Positions 39,157-53,905 of a stretch of DNA of 64,000 nt are shown here, in pieces (position 1 is the stretch's first letter; every line of letters begins with the position of its first letter). The DNA is from Lachnospiraceae bacterium (GTDB lineage Bacteria > Bacillota > Clostridia > Lachnospirales > Lachnospiraceae): contig JAQUVX010000001.1 of the NCBI GenBank assembly GCA_028693165.1, forward strand, positions 1 to 64,000, read 5' to 3'. The notes below the pieces were generated by a model. The model did not search any database and had not been told where the DNA came from. It saw nothing but the letters and a program-made list of their open reading frames with translations. The position numbers were made by a program, and so were the translations under genes.

Positions 39157-41055
39157 TTATTCCTCTTTGGATAGGGGCCTGACGTTCACGGAGCGGAGCA
39201 TTTCATTGCACTCGTAGATGCTGTTCTGCGTCATGGTACAGAGGATGATGTGGTAGGCGGCTTGTTCCATACCGTTCTTCAGCGTAAATCCGGCTTTGTC
39301 CAGGAGGTCAAAGCACAGCATAGGAGGAAGCTGTAGCCCGACACACATGGCGACCACCGTTTGCAGTTTCGGCGTTTTAGCGCCGCTTCGGTATTTGCGG
39401 ATATTGTCCTCGTTGATAAGGCAGCGGTCAGCCAGCGCCTCGTTAGTTAGCCCCAGGCGCTTAATGTGTGCGGCCAAAGTATCGCCGAACTCGCTGGGGA
39501 GCGCCTTCTTGATAGCGGTCACGGTTTTTACCGACGCTTGGAAGTCCGCACTGGTCGAGGCTTTGATATCAAGCGCCTGGTTGAACTGATTATGGAGATA
39601 CCCGGCTTCAGCCTGGGAATCCGACATCGCCGCCCGGAACAGGGCGCATTCCGTGTAGTAGGATGCGCCGTACTGCGAGTTTTTCTTATATGAAATTTCA
39701 AAGGCAAGGCAGCACTCATCCATGTGCTGCACGGCGTAATCGGTGAGCATCGCCGTTCCCGCCGCAGTCCTGCCGATGTACTTCTTATTGTTTATGCAAA
39801 CGTGCTTGTCCACATAGACATACCGCCCGGACTCCATCATCGTCTTGAATTCGGGCTTCGTGAGGAACGCAATAGCTAAGTCCGCTTCAGTAGCGACGAA
39901 GGTCTGATTCTTGGAGACGGATTTGGACTCGAAAGAATGGCTTTGAACATAGCCGTCCTCCGTATAATTGAACACGCCGATGGCTTCCGTGTATCCGAGG
40001 TCAATCATTCGGATTTTCGCAGACTGCTTGGACACGCCGAAATACTCCGCAAGGGAGGCGACGACCTGCTCCATGATCTCGGAGGGAGCGGCATCCGGGA
40101 ACTGCGCCTTTTTCTCGGCGAACAGTTCTTTGATTTTAATCTTCGTGGTCGATATGGGCATAAGGATGCGGGGCGCGAGGTGGTTGGCTTGCCATTCCAT
40201 CCACTCAAGCGGAGAACGCTTCTTCTCCGGCGCATCGCCCTCTTTGACCTGGCAGACGATGGATTTGGCATCTGCGTTGTACAGCTTTTCAAGCTCAAAA
40301 AAGCGGCGATGCAAGCCCCAATGGACGCACTCGTGAACGATGGTGTTATTATACGAGCCGAGCGTGTACATGAAAAACACATCGGGGTCGACGAGAATCG
40401 TTCCCTCCTCGACCGCCACATCGTGGTATACACCCTTGTCCTCATCGTAGCAGGGAACGAGGCAGTCGGCAAAGAACACCTGCCCAAACACCGAGCAGGT
40501 CTTTGTGATGCGCTCCTGCCGAATAGTCAAGCCCATACGACTGGCAAGGTCGGACGCAGCAAGAGGTGTCGGCTTTTCGAGGGCTTCGGGATAGTACTGC
40601 CGAAGGAAGTCCTCTGCGACGGAATCAAGCTCGCCCTTATGTATAATCGGAATGAGATAGTCGGAAAGCTGACCCGGTTTGCCGGCCTTTGACTTGGAAT
40701 AGATATGGAAATCCTCCACACGGAAGTTCTTGATGCCGTTGGAGATGTCACAGGAACAGGATACTCTGAACCATTGCTCTGCGGCATCAGTCTCACGCTC
40801 ACGCCGCACGGTCTCGGCGATTTCTATCTCGGCCGAGACGACCACGTCGAACTTAAGCTCCGTGCTGGTCGTTCCCGTGATGCTCAACAGCCGGACTTCC
40901 ATATCTTCGAGGCGGGCTTCCTCCGGCTCTTGCACATAGGAAGAGCGGCAGCCGAGCCTGGACGGGTTCTCTTCGATATGAGCGGAGAGCGCAGAAAAAA
41001 TAACATCGTAAAACTTATCCGATATGACATCCTTGAATGAAGCTATTTGTGCCAT
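39157..41055 (-). CDS. Long ImmA/IrrE-family metallopeptidase with C-terminal HTH
   Basis: A 632-residue protein, about three times the length of a usual ImmA. The metallopeptidase centre is NNTIVHECVHWGLHRRFFEL (HExxH zinc site) followed by WMEWQANHLAPRILMPISTT (conserved E/A..LAA region). A long C-terminal part (about 350-560) is of unknown fold. Near the end lies an XRE-type helix-turn-helix (HIKRLGLTNEALADRCLINE, then DNIRKYRSGAKTPKLQTVVA). Start 41055 has AGGAGGT seven bases upstream. ImmA proteins cleave phage or ICE repressors to trigger induction. This one could self-target through its own HTH. Confidence 0.88.
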   Translation of the reverse strand: MAQIASFKDVISDKFYDVIFSALSAHIEENPSRLGCRSSYVQEPEEARLEDMEVRLLSITGTTSTELKFDVVVSAEIEIAETVRRERETDAAEQWFRVSCSCDISNGIKNFRVEDFHIYSKSKAGKPGQLSDYLIPIIHKGELDSVAEDFLRQYYPEALEKPTPLAASDLASRMGLTIRQERITKTCSVFGQVFFADCLVPCYDEDKGVYHDVAVEEGTILVDPDVFFMYTLGSYNNTIVHECVHWGLHRRFFELEKLYNADAKSIVCQVKEGDAPEKKRSPLEWMEWQANHLAPRILMPISTTKIKIKELFAEKKAQFPDAAPSEIMEQVVASLAEYFGVSKQSAKIRMIDLGYTEAIGVFNYTEDGYVQSHSFESKSVSKNQTFVATEADLAIAFLTKPEFKTMMESGRYVYVDKHVCINNKKYIGRTAAGTAMLTDYAVQHMDECCLAFEISYKKNSQYGASYYTECALFRAAMSDSQAEAGYLHNQFNQALDIKASTSADFQASVKTVTAIKKALPSEFGDTLAAHIKRLGLTNEALADRCLINEDNIRKYRSGAKTPKLQTVVAMCVGLQLPPMLCFDLLDKAGFTLKNGMEQAAYHIILCTMTQNSIYECNEMLRSVNVRPLSKEE

Positions 41056-41196
41056 CGCAGTACCTCCTATCTGCGCCCTTCGGAACACACGCCTGTTTCC
41101 GAAATTACCACAATTCTCCGGCTTCCCTTGAGTCCAATTATAGTATGATACAGGCTTAGTGTAAATCTTTATGTTCGTTACCTCCGTGATGAGTGT

Positions 41197-42438
41197 TCAT
41201 CGTGCCATCATGCCGGGCATGATTATTTCGTGCATTCCTCGACCCGGCATTTTCAAGTCGCCCATCAGCGCCGCCGAGTGGATTGCTCGTTTCCCAAAAC
41301 GGCGACGGATATCCTCGACCGCAGTTTCGAGTTTGTCGAGCCTGTCGAGTCGTGCTGAATCGGTGAAAATGTCCATCTGCTGCGGTTGACCCTGCGGCAG
41401 AAGGTTAATTGCGCGGACGGTGACCGCGCGGACGGGAATCCGCCAGTCATACCGTGCCGTGAACAGTTCCCGCGCCTTCTCCGCAATTATCATAGGGCTG
41501 CGTGTTGCGATGGAAAACGGGGTCTGGTATTGCTTGTAGTTCAGTTCATTATTCTTAACGGTGATCTGCACACCTCCGGCGACGAGTTGGTGAACACGCA
41601 GCTTATGACCGATGTCCTGGGATAATTCAAGCATCACCTTCCAGACCTCTTCTTCGTTCTCAAGGTCGGCAACACAGGTGATGCCGTGTCCTATGGATTT
41701 GACAGGGGAAACAAAATCCTTGCTCGCCACACGGGAAGAGTCGGCGCCGGAAGCGTAGCTCCATAGGGCAAGTCCATTCACGCCGAACCAGCCTTTGAGT
41801 GTTTCGGGAGGGAGCGCCGCAAGCTGCCCGATGGTGTGAACGCCATAGCTCGCCAGCTTCTTTTCTGTGGCTCTGCCGACATATATCATCTCGGATGCAG
41901 GGAGCGGCCACACCTTATCCCGATAGTTCTCTTCGGTGATTTCGGTTATAGCGTCGGGCTTTTTCATATCGCTGCCCAATTTCGCAAAAATCTTATTGAA
42001 GGAAACGCCGATGGATACCGTAAGCCCAAGTTCCTGCTTTACCGTCTGCCGGATGGTTTCTGCTATCTCCATCTCGTTTCCGTACATGGTGCGGCTTCCC
42101 GAAACGTCGAGCCAACACTCGTCCATTCCAAATGGCTCGACAAGGTCGGTGAAGCGGGAGTAGATGGCGCGGGTCAGCGCCGAATACTTGAGGTACTGCT
42201 CGTACTGCGGAGGTACAAGGATGAGGTTCGGGCAGAGCCGTTTCGCTTCCCAATTCACCATGCCCGTTTTCACGCCGGCCTTTTTCGCAATCTCCGACTT
42301 CGCCAGGACGATGCCATGTCTGTCCTCTGTGCTTCCGCATACAGCCACAGCCTTATTCCGCAGCGACGGGTCGAGCATCATCTCCACAGACGCATAAAAG
42401 CAATTCAAATCGCTATGCAGTATGGCTCGCGCTGACAC
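41197..42438 (-). CDS. Y-family DNA polymerase (DinB/UmuC-like)
   Basis: A 413-residue translesion polymerase. The palm opens ILHSDLNCFYASVEMMLDPS (catalytic D, YF-gate) and contains VEPFGMDECWLDVSGSRTMY (second catalytic DE) and TVSIGVSFNKIFAKLGSDMK. A helix-hairpin-helix thumb follows (YGVHTIGQLAALPPETLKGW), then a little-finger domain. The C-terminus ends MDIFTDSARLDRLDKLETAV, resembling the clamp-binding MDLF/QLxLF type motif. It is the first gene of the leftward early transcript starting from the consensus promoter at 42545-42573, so it would be made first on induction. Confidence 0.96.
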   Translation of the reverse strand: MSARAILHSDLNCFYASVEMMLDPSLRNKAVAVCGSTEDRHGIVLAKSEIAKKAGVKTGMVNWEAKRLCPNLILVPPQYEQYLKYSALTRAIYSRFTDLVEPFGMDECWLDVSGSRTMYGNEMEIAETIRQTVKQELGLTVSIGVSFNKIFAKLGSDMKKPDAITEITEENYRDKVWPLPASEMIYVGRATEKKLASYGVHTIGQLAALPPETLKGWFGVNGLALWSYASGADSSRVASKDFVSPVKSIGHGITCVADLENEEEVWKVMLELSQDIGHKLRVHQLVAGGVQITVKNNELNYKQYQTPFSIATRSPMIIAEKARELFTARYDWRIPVRAVTVRAINLLPQGQPQQMDIFTDSARLDRLDKLETAVEDIRRRFGKRAIHSAALMGDLKMPGRGMHEIIMPGMMAR

Positions 42439-42460
42439 GAAAACAGCCTCCTTTCCGAAA

Positions 42461-42610
42461 ACTTCTCAAAAACTTTGTTCAAACCCCTTGACAAGAGAGG
42501 TATGGGAAGTTACAATAATGATGAACTTCCCAAACTTCTCTTTTAGTATAGTGAGAAAGAGAAGTTTTGTCAATAGGTTTTGAGAAGTTTGAGAAGAAAA
42601 ATGAGAAGTA
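42461..42610. promoter_or_regulatory. Operator array with two face-to-face consensus promoters
   Basis: Plus-strand promoter: TTGACA (42487-42492), 17 bases, TACAAT (42510-42515). Minus-strand promoter: TTGACA (42568-42573 read leftward), 17 bases, TATACT (42545-42550). Around them lie repeated 9-bp boxes: ACTTCTC (42461-42467), GGGAAGTT (42503-42510) inverted to AACTTCCC (42523-42530), AAACTTCTC (42531-42539), GAGAAGTTT (42559-42567 and 42582-42590), GAGAAGTA (42603-42610). The start points are expected near 42522 and 42538, so the two transcripts would collide. This is a genetic-switch layout. Confidence 0.88.
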
Positions 42611-42632
42611 CAGCTATTAAGGAGGAATTCCC

Positions 42633-43061
42633 ATGACTTTCTCTGACAAAGTAAAACTCGCGCGCACCGAGCTTGGCATAAATCAAGAGCAGCTTGCCGA
42701 GCTTATGGGAGTGTCGCGGCGCAGCGTGACATCCTGGGAAACTACGGGTACCAAGCCGCGCGGAAGTCGGCTTCGCAAATTGGCGGAGCTTCTTCAAGTG
42801 TCGGAGGATTATCTCGCGCACGACAAAATCACCGACCCGAAATATGGTATGGAAAAGAAGGAGTACGTCGAAGAGACTCGTTCCCGTTTCGGCGACCGTG
42901 CGGCAAAGGAGATGGATGTCCTTCTCGAAAAGAACGTCGCCCTGTTCGCCGGAGGTGAATTAAGCCAGGAAGCAAAGGACTCGTATTTCGAGGCCGTGAT
43001 GAGGGCTTATATCACCTGCAAAGAGGAAGCAAAAAAAACCTACGGACGCAAGAAGTCCTGA
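42633..43061 (+). CDS. XRE-family repressor of the lysogeny switch
   Basis: A 142-residue repressor. Residues 5-60 are a Xre HTH (VKLARTELGINQEQLAELMG, SRRSVTSWETTGTKPRGSRL). The rest is a charged helical dimerisation region (EKKEYVEETRSRFGDRAAKE). The RBS is AAGGAGG. It is transcribed from the plus-strand promoter at 42487-42515 and lies next to the operator array, so it should repress the divergent polymerase/early operon and itself. It has no LexA-like protease region. The ImmA gene just downstream probably inactivates it. Confidence 0.92.
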   Translation: MTFSDKVKLARTELGINQEQLAELMGVSRRSVTSWETTGTKPRGSRLRKLAELLQVSEDYLAHDKITDPKYGMEKKEYVEETRSRFGDRAAKEMDVLLEKNVALFAGGELSQEAKDSYFEAVMRAYITCKEEAKKTYGRKKS

Positions 43062-43126
43062 ATATGGGACACACCTTCATTTAAAATATAGGGTGTAGTC
43101 TACCCTGAACCGGGGAGGTATCGGAT

Positions 43127-43684
43127 TTGTCGCTGGACTGGATAAGCCGTGAAGTCATGCGGCTTAAAAGAAAGTATGACGAAACCGACCCGTTCCGACT
43201 GTGCCGCGCTATGGGTATTATTCTCCTCTTCGAGCCGATGGGAACACATGAGGGCGCTTGCAAAGGCTTTTTCCTCGCCCAAAGCCGCAAGAGGTCAATC
43301 ACGATAAACTGCGATCTCCCGCAGGCCCTACAGCGAATCATTGCGACACACGAATTGGGTCACGCAGTCCTCCATGCCAGAGCCGCCGGAGTCAAGGCGT
43401 TTCACGACTTCGAGCTTTTTGACGGCACGTCGCGCATGGAGTACGAAGCGAATATATTTGCAGCAGAATTCCTCATGGCAGATGAGGATGTATTAGAGCG
43501 GCTTAATGACGACATCTCCTTTTTCGGAGCGGCCGCCGAGCTTCGGGTTCCTGCCGAACTGCTCGATTTCAAATTCCGCATTATGAAGCGTAAGGGCTTC
43601 AAGATGATTGACCCTCCGCTCATGTGCAACAGTAATTTTCTGAAGGACGTGGAGGTGGGCGCGGATGACGACGAAGCCTATTAA
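43127..43684 (+). CDS. ImmA/IrrE metallopeptidase (anti-repressor protease)
   Basis: A 185-residue ImmA-type protease with RIIATHELGHAVLHARAAGV (HELGH zinc site) and RMEYEANIFAAEFLMADEDV (conserved E..AN.FAaeLLmp). I use the TTG at 43127 as start because GGAGG is seven bases upstream; there is no good ATG. It follows the repressor on the same strand, the classical repressor-ImmA pair, and would cleave the repressor when activated by DNA damage or other signals. The last bases overlap the next gene by 20. Confidence 0.92.
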   Translation: MSLDWISREVMRLKRKYDETDPFRLCRAMGIILLFEPMGTHEGACKGFFLAQSRKRSITINCDLPQALQRIIATHELGHAVLHARAAGVKAFHDFELFDGTSRMEYEANIFAAEFLMADEDVLERLNDDISFFGAAAELRVPAELLDFKFRIMKRKGFKMIDPPLMCNSNFLKDVEVGADDDEAY

Positions 43685-43943
43685 AGTCTATGTGGCGGTC
43701 TCAGCGGAGTTCGATGCCGAAGGCCGCCTCATCCCTACGGTGATAACCTGGGAGGACGGCAACAAATACGAAATCGACCGTATCACGAACATCTGCCAAG
43801 CGGCGGCGATGAAGGCCGGTGGGCAGGGCGACAGATATACGATAATGATAAACGGTCATCAGAGCTATCTGTTCTTTGAGCGGAACGCCTCGCTGACCGG
43901 GAACAACATAGGGCGCTGGTTCGTGGAACGGCGCACGGCATAA
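43665..43943 (+). CDS. Conserved small protein behind ImmA
   Basis: A 92-residue beta-rich protein: KVYVAVSAEFDAEGRLIPTV, ITWEDGNKYEIDRITNICQA and HQSYLFFERNASLTGNNIGR. The ATG has GGAGGTGGG upstream and overlaps the ImmA 3' end, so translation is coupled. Proteins of this look are common beside ImmA-like genes of Clostridial elements but have no known role. No metal or nucleotide motif is visible. Confidence 0.78.
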   Translation: MTTKPIKVYVAVSAEFDAEGRLIPTVITWEDGNKYEIDRITNICQAAAMKAGGQGDRYTIMINGHQSYLFFERNASLTGNNIGRWFVERRTA

Positions 43944-43960
43944 AAGAAAGGGTGGTTTAT

Positions 43961-44185
43961 ATGAAATCTGATGTTATTACTTGTGCGAAATGCGGCGGTA
44001 AGTTTACATGGCATGAATACAATGGTGGCTACCCCGGCGGCAAGGACAGAGAAAGCGTTTGTTGCCCCTACTGCGATGAAGAGGCATTCACCGTCATGAT
44101 AAGCGGAGTGGTGGCAGTCGATAAAGTTCAAGAGCCTGGCACAGATGAAACCGTAGCGACAATGACCACTCTCGGATTGTTATGA
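43961..44185 (+). CDS. Small zinc-ribbon protein
   Basis: A 74-residue protein with ITCAKCGGKFTWHEYNGGYP and SVCCPYCDEEAFTVMISG, two Cys pairs forming a zinc ribbon. The ATG at 43961 has AAGGGTGG at suitable spacing, while a GTG three codons earlier is also possible. It lies between the unknown 92-residue protein and the exonuclease operon and may be part of the same transcript. Function unknown; nucleic-acid or protein binding is likely. Confidence 0.7.
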   Translation: MKSDVITCAKCGGKFTWHEYNGGYPGGKDRESVCCPYCDEEAFTVMISGVVAVDKVQEPGTDETVATMTTLGLL

Positions 44186-44200
44186 TTTGGAGGGATTGAT

Positions 44201-45172
44201 ATGAGCGGTACTGTTATCAGCATTGGTCCGGGAGGCATCAGCTTTGGTGGCTCGGCAGAAAAGGCAGACAGAACTGAAAAGGGAGAAAGTCTCCTTGCTC
44301 TCCCGACTACATACACGGTCGTCGACCTTGAAACTACCGGTCTTGACCCGCAATGGAACGATATAATTGAATTCGGAGCTATGCGTGTAGTAGACGGCAT
44401 GGTAACCGAGAAATACGCGCAGCTTGTCAATCCTGGATATGAGATTGATGAGTTCATCACAGAGCTTACGGGCATTACCAATGAGATGCTTGCGGAGGCT
44501 CCGGCTGTAAATGTGGTTCTCCCTGGCTTTTTGGAGTTTGTTGGTGACGGTGTAGTAATCGGTCACAATGTGAATTTCGATATAAACTTCATATACGACA
44601 CTTGCATTAGCGTTCTGGACAAGCCCTTCAAGAATGACTTTGTCGATACCATGCGACTGAGTCGCCGCCTCTTCCCGCAGGAACGCCATCACAGGCTTTG
44701 CGACCTAATAGAACGCTTCCGTGTAGGCGAAGCTGTGGAGCATCGGGCGTTGGCTGATGTAGAGCAAACAAACCGTTGCTACCTCTTCATGAAAGGACAC
44801 ATGGAAAGCAACGGGATTACCATAGAATCCTTGCGCCCTACGAAGAGCGGATTTTCTGCAAAAGATATCCAAGCCTCGACAACGGACTTTGATGAAGCAT
44901 CCCCGGTCTATGAAAAAGTATTCGTGTTTACGGGTACTCTGGAGCGCATGACCCGCAAAGAGGCTATGCAGCTTGTTGTCGACCGTGGTGGCCTATGTGG
45001 CGACGGGGTCAACAAGAAGACAAATTTCCTCGTCCTCGGCAACAATGACTACTGCTCCACAATAAAGGACGGCAAAAGCTCCAAACAAAAGAAAGCGGAA
45101 CAGCTTAAGCTGTCTGGCTGCGATATCGAAATCATCTCCGAGAATGTGTTTTATGACATGATTGGAGGATGA
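44201..45172 (+). CDS. DnaQ-type 3'-5' exonuclease fused to BRCT domain
   Basis: A 323-residue DEDDh exonuclease plus BRCT. TYTVVDLETTGLDPQWNDII carries the first D-E pair, VVIGHNVNFDINFIYDTCIS the third Asp, and EHRALADVEQTNRCYLFMKG the His/Asp. The BRCT domain spans about 230-320 (KVFVFTGTLERMTRKEAMQL, then VNKKTNFLVLGNNDYCSTIK). Such proteins trim or proofread DNA ends; the BRCT may bind nicks or phosphate. Its stop overlaps the next ATG (ATGA), the first of three such overlaps. The gene belongs to an accessory operon rather than to the replication module. Confidence 0.93.
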   Translation: MSGTVISIGPGGISFGGSAEKADRTEKGESLLALPTTYTVVDLETTGLDPQWNDIIEFGAMRVVDGMVTEKYAQLVNPGYEIDEFITELTGITNEMLAEAPAVNVVLPGFLEFVGDGVVIGHNVNFDINFIYDTCISVLDKPFKNDFVDTMRLSRRLFPQERHHRLCDLIERFRVGEAVEHRALADVEQTNRCYLFMKGHMESNGITIESLRPTKSGFSAKDIQASTTDFDEASPVYEKVFVFTGTLERMTRKEAMQLVVDRGGLCGDGVNKKTNFLVLGNNDYCSTIKDGKSSKQKKAEQLKLSGCDIEIISENVFYDMIGG

Positions 45173-45801
45173 CCAATATGCCGCTGATTCAAGAAGAACG
45201 AATGATGATAACAATTGATAAAGACCGTTTCGACTTTCTCCTATACGCCTATTTTGGTGGGAGCAATAACCCCTACCCAGTAGCGAGCAAACGAGCATAT
45301 CGTGACCTGTGCCGGACGCTGCGTTTCAACGGCGGCGACGGACACGAATACCGTGAGGACATGGACGCTCTCCTGGAGAAGAGAATACGCTCGCTCCTGG
45401 CAGAGCCGAGCCACACACAAGCCCACTACGATGAGTGGCATCAGTCTTTGTGCGAAGAGATGGTGGGCTACTACCATAACCGAGGCATTGAATTCAACAT
45501 CGGTCACGCCCAAAAGTGGGTCAACATGACGATGAAGTATCTGTACATTCACGGTGGCGTGGATGTATCCTCCGTATTCGATTACCTCCACGTCCCCCTC
45601 GATCAGTATGTGTTTACAGCCGCAGAGGGGAAACTGTCGCTTCGCCGCCCTTGCGCCGCTTGGAGCAAGATATGCGACTATAAGCTGTACTTGGACTTCC
45701 AGAAGAAAATTCGAGCCGCAGTTGATGTAGCCCCTCTTCGTTGGGAGTTCCAGAACTGGATTGAGGAAGCGGCAAAGAGGAAAGGTGGCAATTCAGAATG
45801 A
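45169..45801 (+). CDS. Unknown 210-residue protein of the exonuclease operon
   Basis: A helical protein without a recognised family: FDFLLYAYFGGSNNPYPVAS, DLCRTLRFNGGDGHEYREDM, HYDEWHQSLCEEMVGYYHNR and VNMTMKYLYIHGGVDVSSVF. It looks like a globular cytosolic protein; no metal, nucleotide or membrane signal. Translation is coupled to both the exonuclease upstream and the 345-residue protein downstream through ATGA overlaps, so it almost surely works with them. It is a prime unknown for experimental study. Confidence 0.75.
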   Translation: MTNMPLIQEERMMITIDKDRFDFLLYAYFGGSNNPYPVASKRAYRDLCRTLRFNGGDGHEYREDMDALLEKRIRSLLAEPSHTQAHYDEWHQSLCEEMVGYYHNRGIEFNIGHAQKWVNMTMKYLYIHGGVDVSSVFDYLHVPLDQYVFTAAEGKLSLRRPCAAWSKICDYKLYLDFQKKIRAAVDVAPLRWEFQNWIEEAAKRKGGNSE

Positions 45802-46835
45802 AGATTGAGATGGGCGAATCGCTCTTTTACTCTTGGCTTCGCCATGTGAAGGAGTGCCAGATAGTACAGACGAATTGGAAGGTATCCCCACAATGGCAAC
45901 TACACCATGAAGATGAACTTGCGGAGCTTATGACGGCAACGGATGAGCATTTCAGTTTGAGGTACGGGTATAAGATTTATAAGAAAAACAGTTCTCTGTC
46001 GCAGCTTATCCAGCAAGGAGAATGCGATGCGGTTGGCGTTTCCATTCAAGAGGATGGCCCTCGCTATTATGCTGTGGATGTGGCCTTCCATGAGAGCGGT
46101 CTAAACTATGGCACACGAGAAGAAACCGTGATGAAAGTAATATCCAAGAGCCTACGAACCGCTATGTGCCTTTATGGGTATATGGAAACGAAGCGCGCGG
46201 AAATCACATTTGCATCGCCGAAGATTAACCCTTCGATACTCTCTGATGTAGAACCTTGCATCGAGGATGCAAACGCCCTGTTGGCGGCTCGTGGCTTCAA
46301 TTTTTCGATTCGGGTCATTGCTAACGAGGAGTTCAACGAGTCGGTGCTTCAGCCCATCCTTCTGATGAGCGATGGCGTAGCTGACACCTCCGAGCTTTTC
46401 CTCCGCAGCTATCAGATGTATACCATGTTTGCCGGATCGCCGGCCGGAGCCGCAAAATCGGGACGTGCTACATCCCCAAAGCGAATGGCAGATAAGGTGG
46501 AGATTGATTACCAGGACGATGGCGTTTATAAGGAACTGAAGGTCGGGGCAATAGCGAGAACAGTCTTGCGGAAAATGCTATCAGACGGGTCTGCCAGCGA
46601 TGATGAAGTAGCCTTTATGCAGACCACCGAGTATAGCAAGCAGTTTTTCGGGCTTCAGTATCCTCTGCTTCTACGGACAGATGCCGCCGAAACGGAGCTT
46701 CATTACTACAAAGACCCGCTGCTGATAAACGGTGAGCGATACCGTATGTGTTGCGAGTGGTTTGAAACGGCCGCAAACAACGACCGACCCTATCTGCTTA
46801 AGTGGATTGAGGGTCACAAGGAGGGAGTAAAATGA
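45798..46835 (+). CDS. Unknown 345-residue protein, possible PD-(D/E)XK-like nuclease
   Basis: Residues about 70-140 read like a restriction-endonuclease-like core: QQGECDAVGVSIQEDGPRYY, AVDVAFHESGLNYGTREETV, then VMKVISKSLRTAMCLYGYME and EITFASPKI. The strand order with D in AVDVA, E in FHES and K in KVISK fits, but does not prove, a PD-(D/E)XK fold. The C-terminal 100 residues (AGAAKSGRATSPKRMADKVE) form a second domain that looks like a DNA-modification-type cap. It is coupled by ATGA to both neighbours. It could be an effector nuclease of a defence unit; that is inference. Confidence 0.7.
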   Translation: MKIEMGESLFYSWLRHVKECQIVQTNWKVSPQWQLHHEDELAELMTATDEHFSLRYGYKIYKKNSSLSQLIQQGECDAVGVSIQEDGPRYYAVDVAFHESGLNYGTREETVMKVISKSLRTAMCLYGYMETKRAEITFASPKINPSILSDVEPCIEDANALLAARGFNFSIRVIANEEFNESVLQPILLMSDGVADTSELFLRSYQMYTMFAGSPAGAAKSGRATSPKRMADKVEIDYQDDGVYKELKVGAIARTVLRKMLSDGSASDDEVAFMQTTEYSKQFFGLQYPLLLRTDAAETELHYYKDPLLINGERYRMCCEWFETAANNDRPYLLKWIEGHKEGVK

Positions 46836-47488
46836 ACCGAACAATTACTGTAAAAGGCATTGGAAAGGTCAGCGCAAAACCCGACTACATAGTTCTTTCG
46901 ATGACTTTGAAAGCCCAGGACATGGATTACGAGAAGACAATGTCGATTGCGGCAGAGCAGTTAAATAATTTGCGGAGTGCCATAGTCAGTGTTGGCTTTA
47001 AGCGCGACGACCTTAAGACAGCCAATTTCGATGTCCAGCCGGACTTCCAAAGTGAGCGTGATAAGGACGGGAATTACAGACGGTGGTTCGCCGGATACAT
47101 CTGCAGCCATGCGCTGAAGGTTGAGTTTGATTTCGACATGGCACGACTCGCTCAGACTTTCTCTGCTTTGGCAAAATGCCTTGCCAAGCCAGAGTTTTCG
47201 GTACAGTTCACAGTGAAGGATAAAGAAGCGGTCAGCACCAGCCTTCTGAAGAGTGCGACGGAAAACGCCAAATCAAAAGCCGTCACACTTTGTGAAGCCG
47301 CAGGTGTATCTCTTGGCGGTCTTATCACTATCGACTATAACTGGGGTGAGCTTCACCTTTATTCGCCCACTCAGTATGAAATGGCAGACCGTTGCCTCGC
47401 AGAAGCACCGTGTGGAAGCAGTATTGATATTGAGCCAGATGATATCGACGTGAGCGATACGGTTACATTCGTGTGGGAAATTGCGTAA
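46832..47488 (+). CDS. SIMPL-domain (DUF541) protein
   Basis: A 218-residue SIMPL/DUF541 protein: RTITVKGIGKVSAKPDYIVL, SMTLKAQDMDYEKTMSIAAE, DLKTANFDVQPDFQSERDKD and SLLKSATENAKSKAVTLCEA. Family members form oligomeric cages and are usually secreted; this one has no signal peptide, so it would act in the cytoplasm. The ATG overlaps the previous stop, and a perfect terminator follows six bases after its stop. As last gene of the DnaQ-BRCT operon it may be a scaffold or sensor; the role here is unknown. Confidence 0.93.
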   Translation: MNRTITVKGIGKVSAKPDYIVLSMTLKAQDMDYEKTMSIAAEQLNNLRSAIVSVGFKRDDLKTANFDVQPDFQSERDKDGNYRRWFAGYICSHALKVEFDFDMARLAQTFSALAKCLAKPEFSVQFTVKDKEAVSTSLLKSATENAKSKAVTLCEAAGVSLGGLITIDYNWGELHLYSPTQYEMADRCLAEAPCGSSIDIEPDDIDVSDTVTFVWEIA

Positions 47489-47493
47489 AATGA

Positions 47494-47535
47494 AAAATAG
47501 CGAGGGATACTATTAAGAGAATCCCTCGCTATTTT
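47494..47535. terminator. Bidirectional terminator between convergent accessory modules
   Basis: AAAATAGCGAGGGAT (47494-47508) pairs perfectly with ATCCCTCGCTATTTT, separated by a 12-base loop. It ends the SIMPL operon rightward and the DUF262-HNH gene leftward. Confidence 0.9.
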
Positions 47536-47565
47536 GTGAGCGATATGCGACCGCAGGAGATGCAA

Positions 47566-48732
47566 TTATCGGTTTCCTTTTGCACGATTATGGGTTTTAC
47601 ACAGCATCTGACAGTTCGTTTCGTCAGTAGCTCCACCTTTGCTCCACGCCGTAACATGGTCTGCGTCCATTTCGGCTTCCTTGTATATTCGCTTTGCATT
47701 TGCGTCATGACCTATGGCACAAAATGGACAATTCGAAATCCCGCGCTGTTTTGCGTCTGCCGTCTGTTTTTGATACACTACTTTTTTGGTTCGCTGATCA
47801 AACACACGTATATTAAGTAGGCTAATATCCGACTCGCCACCGAGAATATATTCGAAAATTCCACGGCGATCTGTGATCTGTGCGTCCTCCATAAGTGAGT
47901 TGACCCTTGCTGCGACTTTATCCTTTGAATAGGCGTTTCTGTGGTATTTGGTGTACAAATCACCCCATTCTTGACCGCACATTTCATTGCCCGTATACTC
48001 AAAAACCGAGTCCACCCAGTCTATTACGGTCTCAAAGTAGGTTTTCAATTCAGTAATGCTGGTGTCACTCCTGTGGCGGGCCATATAGCCGTCGATATCA
48101 TGATTGCTAACCCAATCTAAGGCAGTTTCCAGTATTGCCTGTCTTTTTGGATCGCCCTTTACATAGGTCTGCCATCGGTTCATATTCGAATTTCCCATAT
48201 TTGAGAAAACCTCACGCGCCAGTGTGACGAACGGACCGTGGTAGGCAGCGTTACGTAGTTCCTGCTTAACAAGAGGAACACCAGCGATATTGATAGTTTC
48301 AAACCACGCCTGTATCTCCGATGGCTCACCTTCACAGATGTAAATCGTAAGTGGTGAATTCTTGATAAGCTTTTTCTCGTCCTCATCAAGGCTATTAAAA
48401 TACCGGGGCTTTCCATTTCGCTCGACTGCAAAAGGCCATGATTGATTAACGTACCGTGCGAAGGATGTGATTCTCTGTTGACCGTCAAGCACTTCAAATA
48501 ATCCATCTTTATTCAATACAAAGTAAATGAGTCCAAGAGGGTATTCTTTCAGCAGGGAATCCACAACAGCAACATCGCGCTTGCCATCTCCGTAAATATA
48601 GTTTCGCTGGTATTCTGGCTGAATAATCAGTTTTCCGTCGAGGCCGAATAAGCCTTTGCCTTCATTCTTGTCAAAGACGAAACCTTTACAAATATCGCCG
48701 ACCGTCCATGTCGTGACTAAAGTGGTTTTCAT
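47566..48732 (-). CDS. DUF262 / HNH nuclease (GmrSD-like)
   Basis: A 388-residue protein. The N-terminal DUF262 (ParB-like) domain has [20 protein letters not shown] and [19 protein letters not shown] (conserved YQR and DGQQR). The C-terminal HNH domain has [40 protein letters not shown] and [17 protein letters not shown]262-HNH proteins include GmrSD and BrxU, which restrict modified phage DNA. Its ATG overlaps the adenine MTase stop (ATGA), so it pairs with a methylase and may be the nuclease of a type II-like system. DNA here is visibly AT-richer than the phage core. Confidence 0.93.
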
Positions 48733-49895
48733 AAGCTCTCGCCTCTCTTCTTAAAGCGTATCAGGATACGTGAATACTTGGCTTGGCCGTTAACCACGGC
48801 CGTTCCAAGACCGCCCCCATATTTAACTGTGGGGTCAAATTCCAATTCTTCCATGATTTCATGAGGAGCATTGGCGTATGCGTTGCCACTCGCTTGCCAT
48901 ACTACTTCAAATTGTTCTGGACAATACTTGTCCATGAATGTGATTGGTACACCCATTACGCCGTCAAAGTCAGAGGGTATGCATTCGGTAAATGGAACTT
49001 CTATTGCATTGTAATTATCGTAGCGGGGATACTCGACTTTGCCATAACGCTTCTCAAATTCCAGTTTGAGCCTCTTGTTAAACTTGAGGTTATGGGCCAT
49101 CGTATCAAGAAGAATGGGGTCATGTCGTCTGCCGTGGTCAAGATTTGTGAACCAGCAAGCAGACGCTAAACGTCCCATCACCACGCCATCAATAATTTTG
49201 TATGCTGACCCTTCCTTTTTATTCTCTGTGACCCATTTCTTGTACTCATCAGTAATGATAAAATACATATCTTGATTGAGCGTTTTATATCCAAGCCATA
49301 TTTTGTTGTATTTCAGGAAGGGAAAAACCTCTTTGTATGGGATGGCATTCATGTTGCCGAGGATTACAAAACTCTTGTTTGCTTCCAGTATCCATGCCAG
49401 AAATTCACGAAAAAGGCTGAACGGGGGATTTGTTATAATGATGTCTGCCTCATCTCGTAGTCTACACACCTCATCTGAACGGAAATCTCCATCCCCGTCC
49501 AGATAGCCAGAGAATTGTATATCATCTGAATCAACATCACCGGAGCCATCAGTATCACTGGTTAATGTAAAAAGCTTCCCATGTGTCTCATGTTTACTCT
49601 CATCAAATAGCGGTGATTCACTTTCAAAAAGCGACAGTTGTCGGCTTCCGGCAGACTTCGCATAAGATGTAGAAATGAGTTTCTTCAGCCCAAACCGTGT
49701 AAAATTAGCTGCGAAGTACCTTGTAAAATTCGACCATTCCGGGTCATCACACGGAAGTAAGATGGTCTTATCCCGAAACACATCTGGATTATACTCCACA
49801 TATGCATTCATTTCCGACTCAATATCAGCATACTGAGTGTAGAATTCATCGTTTTGAACAGTTTTTGCCCTACTAAGGCTTGTATTTCCCGCCAT
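48729..49895 (-). CDS. EcoRI-type adenine-specific DNA methyltransferase
   Basis: A 388-residue protein. [20 protein letters not shown] and [20 protein letters not shown] are the N-terminal parts of the EcoRI-MTase family, followed by the catalytic [19 protein letters not shown] (NPPF). The segment [12 protein letters not shown] then [20 protein letters not shown] is family-typical. It should methylate adenine in a short palindrome. Coupled to the DUF262-HNH gene and preceded by a small HTH protein, it completes a methylase-nuclease-controller set. The C-terminal [20 protein letters not shown] tail is normal for the family. Confidence 0.92.
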
Positions 49896-49924
49896 ATATT
49901 CATCAGCCTCCTACGCCAAATTGT

Positions 49925-50143
49925 TTACTTATCAATGGACTCAGATGTAATTCGGAAAAGGTCATCAATTCCGCAGTTGAATAGAGTACATAGTTTCTCA
50001 ACAGTAAAGTAGTCTATTCGGGTCGCTTTATCGTTGTATAAGTTTGATATTGTATTTCGTGATAGCCCCGTTTTCTCGTGTACAGACTGGATGGAGTATC
50101 TATGTTCCCCCATCAATGTAGATAGTGCACAATGAATTGCCAT
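49925..50143 (-). CDS. Small XRE-like HTH controller protein
   Basis: A 72-residue HTH protein: CALSTLMGEHRYSIQSVHEK, TGLSRNTISNLYNDKATRID and YFTVEKLCTLFNCGIDDLFR, a complete Xre domain with no extra domain. Start 50143 has GGAGG at good spacing. It sits 30 bases upstream of the EcoRI-type MTase on the same strand, where C proteins of restriction-modification systems are encoded, and probably delays or balances expression. Confidence 0.9.
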   Translation of the reverse strand: MAIHCALSTLMGEHRYSIQSVHEKTGLSRNTISNLYNDKATRIDYFTVEKLCTLFNCGIDDLFRITSESIDK

Positions 50144-50253
50144 TTTGCACCTCCTCCAAAATATACTGCCATTATACCATACAAGCACATCATTGTAAAC
50201 TACATCATGGTTATATTACTTAGCAATTACATCAATGCACGAGCGTTTAATGC

Positions 50254-52734
50254 CTATCGACTGGTTACAACTTTTCTTGTGTACCTGCACCCGGTCGTCC
50301 GATAATTCGTACATCCATAAAATACGCCATACTGCCCGTTGCGTTTCGCAAGCGGAGCGCCGCAAAGCGGGCAAGTAAATGCTTCCTTACGCATCTCATC
50401 CTGGTATCGGCTCTTTAGTTCCAGAGCAAAGGATGAGGTGTTTTTTTCTGTGGTAACGATGTACACTCGCTTTTTTGCGCGGGTCATTGCTACATAGAAA
50501 AGGCGACGCTCTTCGGCATCAGGGAATGTGTCCGCTTTTTCAAGCAACAAATCGATGAGCGGAGGGTTCTGCACCTTGCTCGGAAAGCCCATGTAGGAAG
50601 CCCGATTGTTGATGATAAAGACAAACTCGGCTTGCAGTCCCTTTGACCTATGCGCCGTGTAAAACGCCATGCGGAGGTCGGGGCGTGACGGGAGTTTCAC
50701 ATCCAGCACCTTTGAGATGTTGTTGTAGGACAAGCGCAGCCGACCGCTTTCTTTCAGAAGATCGGAGTCGAATTGGTATCTCCCAATGAAGTAAACGGTG
50801 CTGTTCTGAGGCAAATCCTCCAACTTCGAGAGCATGAACTGAATCGCCCATTTATCTGTGTAACCCTGAATTTCGCCGAGGACGTACTGCTCCGTGTCGT
50901 TTGAAGCGCGGATGGCTTTCTTAAGCTGATTCGGGTTCTCCATGATGAAGCGGCTCGAAATGTCGATTAGCCTCTGCGAGAAGCGATAGGTGGTTTCTAT
51001 CTTGCTCGTTTCGGCATTGCCCCAATACTTCGCAAAGTTGAGGATATACCCGATGTCGCTTCCGGCAAAGCGATAGATGCTCTGCCAGTCATCCCCCACA
51101 CAGAACAGGGAGAAGAATGCGTCTTTCCTCATGGCTTGAAGGAGGCTGTACTGCCCTTTGGATATATCCTGGTACTCATCAATGATGATGTACTTGAAGC
51201 TATGGTGGAATCCTCCGGCGACGACAAGGTCACAAGCGCGGTTTATCATGTCGTTGAAGTCGATTGCGCCCTCGCTCGAAAGCATCTTCTCATAGGCTTC
51301 ATAAATGGGAAGGAAAAGCCGAACTAACACTTTCTGCCCAATATAAGACGGTAATGAACACAAGTCCAGCAGCCCTTGCGATGATAGACGACCGCTCTTT
51401 GCCAGGGACAGAACGGTTTGAAATAGCTCCGCAAGCCCATCCAGGACGTTCTTTTTGCCCGTGTCCATTTGAGAGAAAAGCTCATTCACGGACACCTGCT
51501 CCATCGGTACGCCGCGCTTTTGGAGGGCTTTCCGAAGATTGTCCAGAAGGCTACCGTTGAGTTTCTCATACGCATAACACTCAATCAGAGCGGTATTGTT
51601 GGCTTCGTGGATGCCTTCTTTCCATGCGATGCCCTCTTGGTAAACCTCTGTCGCCGTTTTTCCTCCACGGCCAGAGAAGTAGGACGGAACTTCACCCTTG
51701 CTGTTCGTTCCGAAGTATTCGATGTAAATGTCGTATTGCGGCAGATAGAAATCGGGGTAGTATTGCCCGTATTCCTCTGTGCGGGTGTCGACTTTGTAGG
51801 ATGCCTCGTATTGGTACTCAATGCCATACTGCGTGAGGAAGTTGGCGATCTCCATTTCGCCGTAGCTCTTTACGGTTTCGCCTTTGATGGTCGTCGGAGG
51901 ATTGGTAGTCAAATAGTCCCTGTATGACCTCTCGGAATCGAAGTCGAACTCCGACTTCTGATTGACCCGATGGAAGAGCATATAGGCCATGAGAAGCCGA
52001 GCATATTCATCATCTTCGAGGCATCGATCTATCTGCTCACGGATGAACTTCCGAGAATCGCCCTTGTAAATAAGCGGGGTCTTTGCCTCGGCTTTCCGAA
52101 TGATATCCAAGCCCAACTTATGAAAGGTAGAAACCCGTATATCGAGGTTCGTCTCCTTTGCAAGCCTGGCATTCATCTCGCTCGCGGCTGCGTTGGTAAA
52201 GGAAAGAACAAGGATTTCATCCGGCTTGCAGGCATCCGTGGCAAGGAGGTACTTAACCTTGCCAAGAATGGTCGTAGTTTTACCCGTTCCGGCTCCCGCC
52301 ACCACGAGGTGGTTCGGCGCGTCCTTGACGATGCATCCCATCTGCTGTTGGTCTAAAGGTCTCCCCTCAATGTTGCCTATGAGCTTATATGCGTTGGTAA
52401 TAGCGCCCTTGAGCCAGGAAGCATTATGGGCAGATATGCCTCCGTTGAGGTTTGAGAGGGCAGTTTGGAAAAGCTGGCTTTGACGCTGAAGCTCACGGTG
52501 CATCGAGGCTTTCCGCAGCTTGCGATTGTGTTCTGCGAGGCGGCTCTCCAAATGATGCCATGAGTTGAGAGAACTTGCATAACTATATCCGTAAATATAG
52601 CCCGGCGTACCATTAAGGAGGTTCGCAATGCCCTGGTTTGCCGCCGCCACTTCGTTTATGACTGACTGGCATAAAGCGTCTCGCTCGTCTTTCTTCTGCT
52701 TCTGATTTGCAAAAAACTTGTCGAGCAATCCCAT
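50254..52734 (-). CDS. UvrD/Rep-family (helicase IV-like) helicase with embedded nuclease-like segment
   Basis: An 826-residue SF1A helicase. Walker A is NHLVVAGAGTGKTTTILGKV, motif Ia VLSFTNAAASEMNARL, motif II FKYIIIDEYQDISKGQYSLL, motif III VGDDWQSIYRFAGSDIGY and motif VI EERRLFYVAMTRAKKRVYIV. Between Ia and II lies a PD-(D/E)XK-like insertion (YEASYKVDTRTEEYGQYYPD then FYLPQYDIYIEYFG), as in helicase IV. The C-terminus has a topoisomerase-type zinc finger (FTCPLCGAPLAKRNGQYGVF then YGCTNYRTTGC). It lies alone at the right end, after the restriction-like module. It might process foreign DNA ends or serve the module. Confidence 0.93.
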   Translation of the reverse strand: MGLLDKFFANQKQKKDERDALCQSVINEVAAANQGIANLLNGTPGYIYGYSYASSLNSWHHLESRLAEHNRKLRKASMHRELQRQSQLFQTALSNLNGGISAHNASWLKGAITNAYKLIGNIEGRPLDQQQMGCIVKDAPNHLVVAGAGTGKTTTILGKVKYLLATDACKPDEILVLSFTNAAASEMNARLAKETNLDIRVSTFHKLGLDIIRKAEAKTPLIYKGDSRKFIREQIDRCLEDDEYARLLMAYMLFHRVNQKSEFDFDSERSYRDYLTTNPPTTIKGETVKSYGEMEIANFLTQYGIEYQYEASYKVDTRTEEYGQYYPDFYLPQYDIYIEYFGTNSKGEVPSYFSGRGGKTATEVYQEGIAWKEGIHEANNTALIECYAYEKLNGSLLDNLRKALQKRGVPMEQVSVNELFSQMDTGKKNVLDGLAELFQTVLSLAKSGRLSSQGLLDLCSLPSYIGQKVLVRLFLPIYEAYEKMLSSEGAIDFNDMINRACDLVVAGGFHHSFKYIIIDEYQDISKGQYSLLQAMRKDAFFSLFCVGDDWQSIYRFAGSDIGYILNFAKYWGNAETSKIETTYRFSQRLIDISSRFIMENPNQLKKAIRASNDTEQYVLGEIQGYTDKWAIQFMLSKLEDLPQNSTVYFIGRYQFDSDLLKESGRLRLSYNNISKVLDVKLPSRPDLRMAFYTAHRSKGLQAEFVFIINNRASYMGFPSKVQNPPLIDLLLEKADTFPDAEERRLFYVAMTRAKKRVYIVTTEKNTSSFALELKSRYQDEMRKEAFTCPLCGAPLAKRNGQYGVFYGCTNYRTTGCRYTRKVVTSR

Positions 52735-52990
52735 GCGGGTAACCTCCTATCCGTATCTGATTTCGCCAAAAAGTATCCTTTCGCCGATAGGTTCATTATA
52801 ACAGCACCTTATGGCAAAACGCGACCCCATTTTTTACTCGATATCCATTCTTCCCGACCCCCGCAAGCAGAAAAACACACAAGCGATATGTACCGAAGTC
52901 GAGGAAATTTGCCCGTAATACGAGCAAAACCCCCGAAATAGGGGCTTTATTCAGCGATATATGCGCCCTGCATCGCGTTCCACAAGGTAA
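52735..52990. other. Right-end region of the prophage with terminator
   Basis: About 250 bases without a gene. A hairpin at 52926-52948 (minus strand AAAGCCCC-TATTTC-GGGGGTTTT) could end transcription of the truncated comM. The rest is AT-rich and gives no coding signal. The junction with host comM lies at its right edge. Confidence 0.6.
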
Positions 52991-53000
52991 TCAGACACCG
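52985..53000. other. Predicted prophage/host junction (attR) inside comM
   Basis: The comM reading frame stops at a TGA (52991-52993) right after SLASRGV, where intact homologues continue LFLDE (Walker B). Sequence to the left no longer resembles comM. The crossover is therefore within a few bases of the CGCGGTGTC block. The second half of comM should lie left of the tandem recombinases, outside the window. Confidence 0.75.
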
Positions 53001-53905
53001 CGGGACGCCAGCGAAATCTCCCCCGGTCTGGGAAAAGCGCCTCCTCCGGTAAGTGCCTGGGCACTGATGGTGTGGTGCGGTTCCCGAAACGGCCTCTGAG
53101 AAAGCAGCGCCTGTCCGGCTGGCAGCATTCCGCAAATACTGTAGATTTTTGAGATCTCCAGCTGTTCTTCCTTCGACAACACCGGCATAATCGTGGGAAT
53201 CCGGCGTGCGACCATACTTTTCCCACTCCCTGGCGGTCCGATGTAGAGCAGGTTATGGCGGCCGGCCACCGCAACCTCCGTCGCCCTGCGCAGGAGCAGC
53301 TGACCACTCACCTCACTAAAATCCACTGCTTCTGTCTCCGGCTGACCGCCTTCCAACTCCACTGCCTCCTCCGGTACCTCTCCGCTGATATTCTCCGGAT
53401 GGTTCAAAAGCTCTGCAAGTTCCCGAAGATCCCTCACCTTCACGATCTCGATCGCCCCGATCGCAAGCCCCTCCGCAACATTCTCCGCCGCCAGAAAACA
53501 CCGACGAATCCCAGCCTCCCGCATAGCGAGAACCATGGCAAGCACCCCGCGCACCGGTTTGATTCTCCCGTCCAGTCCAAGTTCTCCCACAAACGCCGAA
53601 TCCTTCAGCGTCCGGCCGGATATGGTTTCATAGGCGGCCAGTACCGCAACAGCGATCGGCAGATCATATGCCGTCCCCTCTTTTCGGATATTGGCCGGTG
53701 ACAGATTGATCGTCACCTTCATCGCCGGAAGCCGAAAGCCGGTATTCCGCATGGCTGTGCGAACCCGTTCCTCCGCCTCTCTCACCTGTGCCGAAAGATA
53801 TCCAACCATATAAAATCCCGGCAGGCCGGTACTTACGTCAGCCTCCACCTGAACCACATAGCCATCGACACCCTTTACTCCTCCGCTATACACGTTGCAA
53901 AACAA
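52991..53905 (-). pseudogene. comM: comM (YifB-type Mg-chelatase-like ATPase), cut by prophage
   Basis: The 304-residue N-terminal fragment has the Lon-like S16/ChlI N-terminal domain (VQVEADVSTGLPGFYMVGYL, VTINLSPANIRKEGTAYDLP, SAFVGELGLDGRIKPVRGVL) and Walker A NLLYIGPPGSGKSMVARRIP, plus FREPHHTISAQALTGGG. It stops at GEISLASRGV, just before the expected Walker B, whereas family members are about 510 residues. I set the start at a TTG (53905) with AAAGGAG eight bases upstream, giving the family-typical opening (M)FCNVYSGGVKGVDGY. ComM/YifB is linked to natural transformation (branch migration) in other bacteria. The prophage integration probably inactivates it. Confidence 0.93.

Follow-up and report, generated by a model that had tools for sequence, protein, structure and literature searches.

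The window analysed here, a 64,000-nucleotide stretch of contig JAQUVX010000001.1 from a Lachnospiraceae bacterium, carries in a prophage arm four successive plus-strand genes that encode a DnaQ-type exonuclease with a BRCT domain, two proteins of 210 and 345 residues that we call P2 and P3, and a SIMPL-domain protein (Table 1). We suggest, tentatively and with a little less than even confidence, that these genes are exchangeable prophage cargo, a collection of DNA-attacking enzymes at the end of a lysogeny operon that probably serve in defence of the lysogen and move as separate modules. The most useful result is the proposal, drawn from structure models, of likely identities for two proteins that had none: P2 is likely a DNA glycosylase of the helix-hairpin-helix (HhH)-GPD type, and P3 is, by its modelled fold, likely a PD-(D/E)XK nuclease with an unusual active site.

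The open reading frames (ORFs) and their successive ATGA overlaps (at 45169, 45798 and 46832) are as first described, and the set ends at a hairpin (-24.2 kcal/mol, z -7.76, 0/200 shuffles equally good) that a terminator pattern scan missed because its loop exceeds 8. The start codons of P3 and SIMPL are backed by conservation from the first residues on; conservation in the P2 family begins further in, so the P2 start, and hence the first overlap, is less certain. Where the initial annotation saw a four-gene unit, the genes, overlaps and terminator stand, but the four are really the last of an eight-gene plus-strand run. Because this run begins earlier, with repressor and protease genes as its first and second members, the set closes a run of lysogeny type. 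Spacings from the first to the fifth gene are 65, -20, 8 and 15 bases, so that just 15 bases separate the fourth gene from the DnaQ gene. The polymerase IV gene before the run is transcribed away from it, and the type II restriction-modification pair beyond its end is transcribed towards it; purifying selection is among the features shown for the cargo set.

The closest relative found, a contig of a Clostridiales metagenome-assembled genome (L035; L-numbers label the loci and contigs compared), matches the window by blastn at 89.6% over 39916-44188 and at 89.2% over 45799-53054. Between these blocks lie DnaQ and P2 (1.6 kb) in the window but, in L035, 3.7 kb of other genes, one of which carries a DNA/RNA non-specific endonuclease domain. 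The second junction falls at the P3 start codon, with the start/stop overlap kept on both sides of the comparison, and the two prophages thus form a pair in which cargo was exchanged cleanly at overlapping start and stop codons. P3 and SIMPL remain together in L035. A 92-residue backbone gene found by tblastn in four contigs has varied company: P3 and SIMPL in L035; in L067, a 218-residue P3 that lacks the C-terminal module and adjoins a C5 methyltransferase; P2 directly after it in L100; and SIMPL in L098. Because of this swap and these varied contents, the set looks like the occupant of an exchangeable cargo slot rather than a fixed system.

The wider distribution is of the same kind. Since a simple gene caller missed P3 in L059, L078 and L083 and P2 in L021 and L105, co-occurrence was counted by tblastn. 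P3 relatives, some of them near-duplicates, occupy 55 loci in genome contigs naming many phyla, from Bacillota to cyanobacteria, and three in viral contigs. None of these 58 loci outside the window holds P2; SIMPL occurs in two (adjacent in L035, about 3.5 kb away in L039), and a DnaQ match in two others (L044 and L062) covers the exonuclease domain and not the BRCT domain. P3, SIMPL and DnaQ-BRCT are likewise absent from all 18 P2 loci. The conserved co-occurrence of P2 and P3 by which the four genes might have been recognised as a single anti-phage or exclusion system was not found beyond the window in the searches made. In favour of such a system are the overlaps and shared terminator, the possibility that its enzyme types act in sequence, and L027, where other proteins may bring together the same three kinds of enzyme (a glycosylase, an RNase H-like exonuclease and a PD-(D/E)XK-like nuclease). 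Because the relatives live apart, the full set being found nowhere else, and because DnaQ and P2 are replaced in L035, we regard the one-system proposal as largely refuted and very improbable.

P2 is rare: eight of the 299 host-family genomes carry it and, in a profile search, two of 249 genomes of the phylum, each count including the window's genome. Full-length P3 occurs in the window's genome alone among the 299, three more having only the C-terminal module, and a profile search of 240 host-family genomes agrees (4/240). Both proteins also have relatives on plasmids and in settings that, judged by eye, look like ordinary chromosome.

Neither P2 nor P3 has a significant match in Pfam, PADLOC, NCBIfam or PHROGs, and sequence searches of solved structures with their profiles gave nothing useful. 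The P2 model (mean predicted local distance difference test, pLDDT, 82.2) consists of helices only, which fits the early description of a helical protein, and its 11 best structural matches are 8-oxoguanine glycosylases. Conserved residues K116, K123, PxD145 and E193xxxW197 mirror those of the archaeal enzyme AGOG, in which the lysine and PxD correspond to K142, P172 and D174 of Pab-AGOG. K116 and D145 are present in all members of a 16-sequence alignment (A7, which omits both L022 copies, L026, L027, L033 and one L024 copy), where P143 is nearly invariant; one copy outside it, L022:11259-12203, is an exception to the K116/D145 pattern. It is this modelled fold together with the conserved residues that makes P2 likely to be an HhH-GPD glycosylase.

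Compared with AGOG/OGG2 of the HhH-GPD superfamily, P2 has a predicted helical fold that appears to match over most of the protein and, in the same order, a lysine, a second lysine at +7, PxD, and an acid followed at +4 by tryptophan. It differs in lacking profile-level similarity, in having no clear counterpart of the base-reading Q24, in having M120 in place of the base-stacking F146, and in belonging to a family that sits on phages, prophages and plasmids. An hhalign comparison of P2 with five AGOG sequences was not significant (E 0.43), although it pairs PxD145, W165 and E193xxxW197 with the PxD, W and DxxxW of AGOG; comparison with a single AGOG-domain protein gave E 0.077 over 6 columns. 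A written motif pattern matched 8/16 P2 members, 4/5 AGOG sequences and 9/766 locus ORFs, all nine of the latter belonging to the P2 family by sequence, but it describes rather than tests the likeness because it was written after both families had been seen. Among predicted viral structures nothing matched the P2 model significantly; an endonuclease III headed the list at E 0.58. A search for AGOG in the window's own genome found none, with a control that was also silent, and across the phylum AGOG was found in 1 of 199 genomes. In a genome of the same phylum, a 668-residue protein (L155:1012-3018) combines DUF7664 with an AGOG domain and a stretch that weakly resembles YaaA.

The P3 model (pLDDT 83.5) has a PD-(D/E)XK core supported by structural matches, in keeping with the possibility raised in the initial annotation. 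In the alignment of its relatives (A3, from 44 of the 58 loci, with fusions, fragments, one split gene and near-duplicates left out), D77 and D94 are invariant (45/45) and, by conservation, represent the two acidic residues. The fold of residues 1-212 and these acids are shared with FokI, Nt.BspD6I, EndoMS, MspJI and Can2; P3 departs from PD-(D/E)XK nucleases in its active-site lysine position and in having a C-terminal module of its own. The same module forms the C-terminus of proteins with GmrSD_N and GmrSD_C (L028, L030) or GmrSD_C (L029), but P3 has a PD-(D/E)XK domain and no GmrSD match. The protein would thus represent a nuclease family with no Pfam model and a non-standard active site. 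Identification as JetA (E 0.017) or as HamA (a match in 2/45 relatives, best E 0.0011) was rejected as too weak, and a match to NucT (E 0.034), with JetA the best from the profile databases, is likewise not significant. P3 had no match in a phage collection. In viral contigs, relatives of P2 and P3 came to light with alignments as queries but not with single sequences. In L092:8001-9028 P3 is split into two ORFs, and in L090:5704-9032 its gene shares four bases with the end of an AAA_13 ATPase gene matching the PADLOC candidate family PDC-S06.

The neighbours of these relatives bear on function. We compared 125 of the 213 genes near P3 (within 2.5 kb) with 125 of the 161 far genes, leaving out L035, L043, L049 and L051. 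Among the top 25 families listed, C5 methyltransferase models match 5/125 near genes, and no model matches more than 1/125 far genes. On two Priestia plasmids P3 lies between a C5 methyltransferase, its immediate upstream neighbour, and a MutH/Sau3AI-type endonuclease on the downstream side. In L072, L077 and L083, where the P3 proteins share 55-77% identity, a DUF2779 protein comes 17-19 bases after P3; DUF2779 proteins are also direct neighbours of P2 in L027 and L104. DUF2779 is described as a presumed RNase H-like 3'-5' exonuclease, combined in some proteins with the PD-(D/E)XK-like DUF83 (PMC3985635). Genes that read by eye as WYL regulators lie near P2 in 4/18 loci (L022, L024, L027 and L034); a solved-structure search with the L024 product found nothing. 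In L027:8505-11836 such a gene, a DUF2779 protein and a P2 relative form one same-strand run, the last two overlapping, possibly a compact system. These small counts, noted post hoc, weakly suggest that the three kinds of enzyme (glycosylase, exonuclease and nuclease) have come together on more than one occasion, by way of different proteins.

We see two serious readings of the set, defence cargo and prophage DNA repair. Under the second, DinB, DnaQ, P2 and a UvrD-type helicase would form a repair or mutation kit that aids survival of damage, with P2 removing an oxidised or alkylated base, unrelated to rival phages. Several observations point that way: the polymerase IV and UvrD/PcrA-type helicase genes flank the set; repair enzymes head the structural matches of P2; ImmR/ImmA-like pairs, whose counterpart heads the run, are described as responsive to DNA damage (PMC10233336); and a weak P2 relative on a Caballeronia plasmid (L033:7881-8450; 32% over 43% of P2, E 2e-3) adjoins genes annotated as ImuA, a Y-family polymerase and an error-prone polymerase. 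Some results also run counter to the defence reading or to the identities proposed for P2 and P3. No AGOG (PF09171) or HhH-GPD profile matches any of the 16 P2 members at E up to 10. The lysine usually found two residues after the second acid is replaced in P3 by alanine (A96 in 45/45; N in Priestia), although K117, invariant in the same alignment, may stand in for it. Defence models matched in total 121 times near P3 and 141 times far from it, showing no enrichment, so that C5 methyltransferases alone stand out, and weakly. Yet DnaQ and P2 were swapped out whole in L035 while DinB and UvrD stayed, as expected of cargo; methyltransferases and DUF2779 proteins are among the neighbours of P2 relatives in some phage and prophage contigs; and the P2 family is rare in the host family. 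We consider the repair kit rather unlikely. The anti-phage role first proposed is supported in part, by prophage cargo beside type II restriction-modification, by the PD-(D/E)XK fold of P3 and by the company its relatives keep, with the overall count of defence models near P3 speaking against it.

It could also be that the operon simply controls or performs prophage maintenance, with P2 and P3 as phage helpers. The DnaQ-BRCT gene product contains the exonuclease and BRCT domains recognised at the outset, with DEDDh motifs DLETT at 42, NVNFD at 123 and EHRALAD at 180, and its relatives adjoin a short helix-turn-helix (HTH) gene in 8/8 loci read, with a recombinase or integrase within about 3 kb after them in 6/8 (HTH by phmmer in L096, L097, L150 and L152; other HTH and recombinase calls by eye). 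This explanation accounts for DnaQ; P2 and P3, with relatives on plasmids and among genes that by eye look chromosomal, it leaves unexplained, and we think it improbable.

In the cargo model that we prefer, the repressor and ImmA-type protease would keep the operon shut or let it be expressed, with DNA damage as the probable trigger. P2 would flip out a modified or damaged base and excise it by means of K116 and D145, leaving an abasic site or nick, which the P3 nuclease and the DnaQ-type 3'-5' exonuclease would widen. The likeliest benefit would be a lysogen shielded from incoming phage or plasmid DNA. Each gene would be a separately moving module, not a subunit of one machine, and SIMPL, kept with P3 in L035, would be an accessory.

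Base excision has recently been shown to be a form of phage defence, in the UDG (uracil DNA glycosylase)-like Brig proteins and in PabI-type enzymes (PMC11078745, PMC13160076, PMC10273834). A bolder idea, which we hold to be unlikely, is that a mobile P2 family of helical HhH-fold glycosylases defends by excising modified bases, recurrently with an RNase H-like 3'-5' exonuclease and a PD-(D/E)XK nuclease (here DnaQ-BRCT and P3, elsewhere DUF2779 proteins). The proposed strategy would be that of Brig1 and Brig3, base excision against phage DNA. The best structural matches of Brig1 are described as uracil DNA glycosylases and Brig3 as a mixed alpha/beta protein (PMC11078745, PMC13160076); P2 is modelled as all-helical, unlike these UDG-like folds as described, no Brig sequences having been compared. 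Brig defence was measured experimentally, and the role of P2 is predicted from a model. PabI-type enzymes also offer a glycosylase serving restriction (PMC10273834), but with a HALFPIPE fold, which is absent from the P2 structural matches listed, leaving that fold possible. If the idea is true, the P2 family would be a second invention of the Brig strategy. It would also extend the search for such defences to a mobile glycosylase family that has a different fold and that the profiles tried had missed, and P2 comes with named residues open to testing. Among the matches listed, the open-access papers searched contain no description of this gene set or of an HhH-fold defence glycosylase.

Table 1. 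Features of the cargo set and its surroundings in the window
Position	Strand	Feature	Evidence
41197-42438		Polymerase IV (DinB)	E 1.5e-46
42633..43061	+	HTH repressor (phage cI/ImmR type), head of run	HTH_3 1.7e-14; PADLOC RmrA 1.5e-11, capH 5.1e-07
43127..43684	+	M78 / ImmA-IrrE-type metalloprotease	Peptidase_M78 1.5e-16; PADLOC capP 1.6e-11; PHROG metallo-protease 9.3e-20
43665..43943	+	92-aa protein, backbone gene of related prophage arms	tblastn: L035, L067, L098, L100; phmmer: L153
43952..44185	+	77-aa zinc-ribbon-like protein	Weak Zn_ribbon matches only
44189..45798	+	Stretch with DnaQ and P2, replaced in L035	blastn
44201..45172	+	DnaQ-type DEDDh 3'-5' exonuclease with C-terminal BRCT	RNase_T 3.3e-34, BRCT 1.3e-07; PHROG 192 7.3e-52
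45169..45801	+	P2, 210 aa, predicted HhH-GPD-fold DNA glycosylase/apurinic-apyrimidinic lyase, AGOG-like; candidate catalytic K116, D145	Model, structural matches, conserved residues
45798..46835	+	P3, 345 aa, predicted PD-(D/E)XK-fold nuclease domain (1-212) and C-terminal module (~232-340)	Model, structural matches, invariant residues
46832..47488	+	SIMPL/DUF541 protein without leader peptide	SIMPL 4.2e-35; N-termini of relatives
47494-47535	.	Palindromic terminator hairpin	Fold; matches own opposite strand; between convergent genes
47566..48732	-	GmrSD_N-HNH protein, type II restriction enzyme model	GmrSD_N 2.8e-19, HNH 1.9e-07; PADLOC REase_II 1.8e-83
48729..49895	-	EcoRI-type adenine methyltransferase, likely partner of GmrSD_N-HNH gene	EcoRI_methylase 4.3e-121
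50254-52734		UvrD/PcrA-type helicase	E 6.6e-32

The adjacent HTH and M78 genes resemble ImmR/ImmA and CapH/CapP regulators, as their PADLOC matches indicate, and differ in that no genes of CBASS (cyclic oligonucleotide-based anti-phage signalling) or of an integrative and conjugative element (ICE) were identified in the plus-strand run. The restriction-like module noticed beside the set is, by its profile matches, likely a type II restriction-modification pair (47566-49895). Its GmrSD_N-HNH and methyltransferase genes are 99.2% and 99.7% identical to those of L035, with a dS (synonymous divergence) of 0.07-0.08, far below the value of about 1.06 for the nearby UvrD gene, as if the pair had been acquired or exchanged recently.

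The SIMPL domain (PF04402) spans the full length of its protein (profile positions 1-205 of 205). The protein starts at the beginning of the domain in 5/5 sequences read (the window, L098, L099, L149 and L039, the last with about 4 extra residues); a distant relative, L132, carries a leader-like extension. The relative in L099 has what look by eye like type III restriction genes nearby, and in L149:7480-10653 and L154:4140-7312 a macro-domain gene, an ADP-ribosylglycohydrolase gene (both by eye) and a leaderless SIMPL gene stand in a row.

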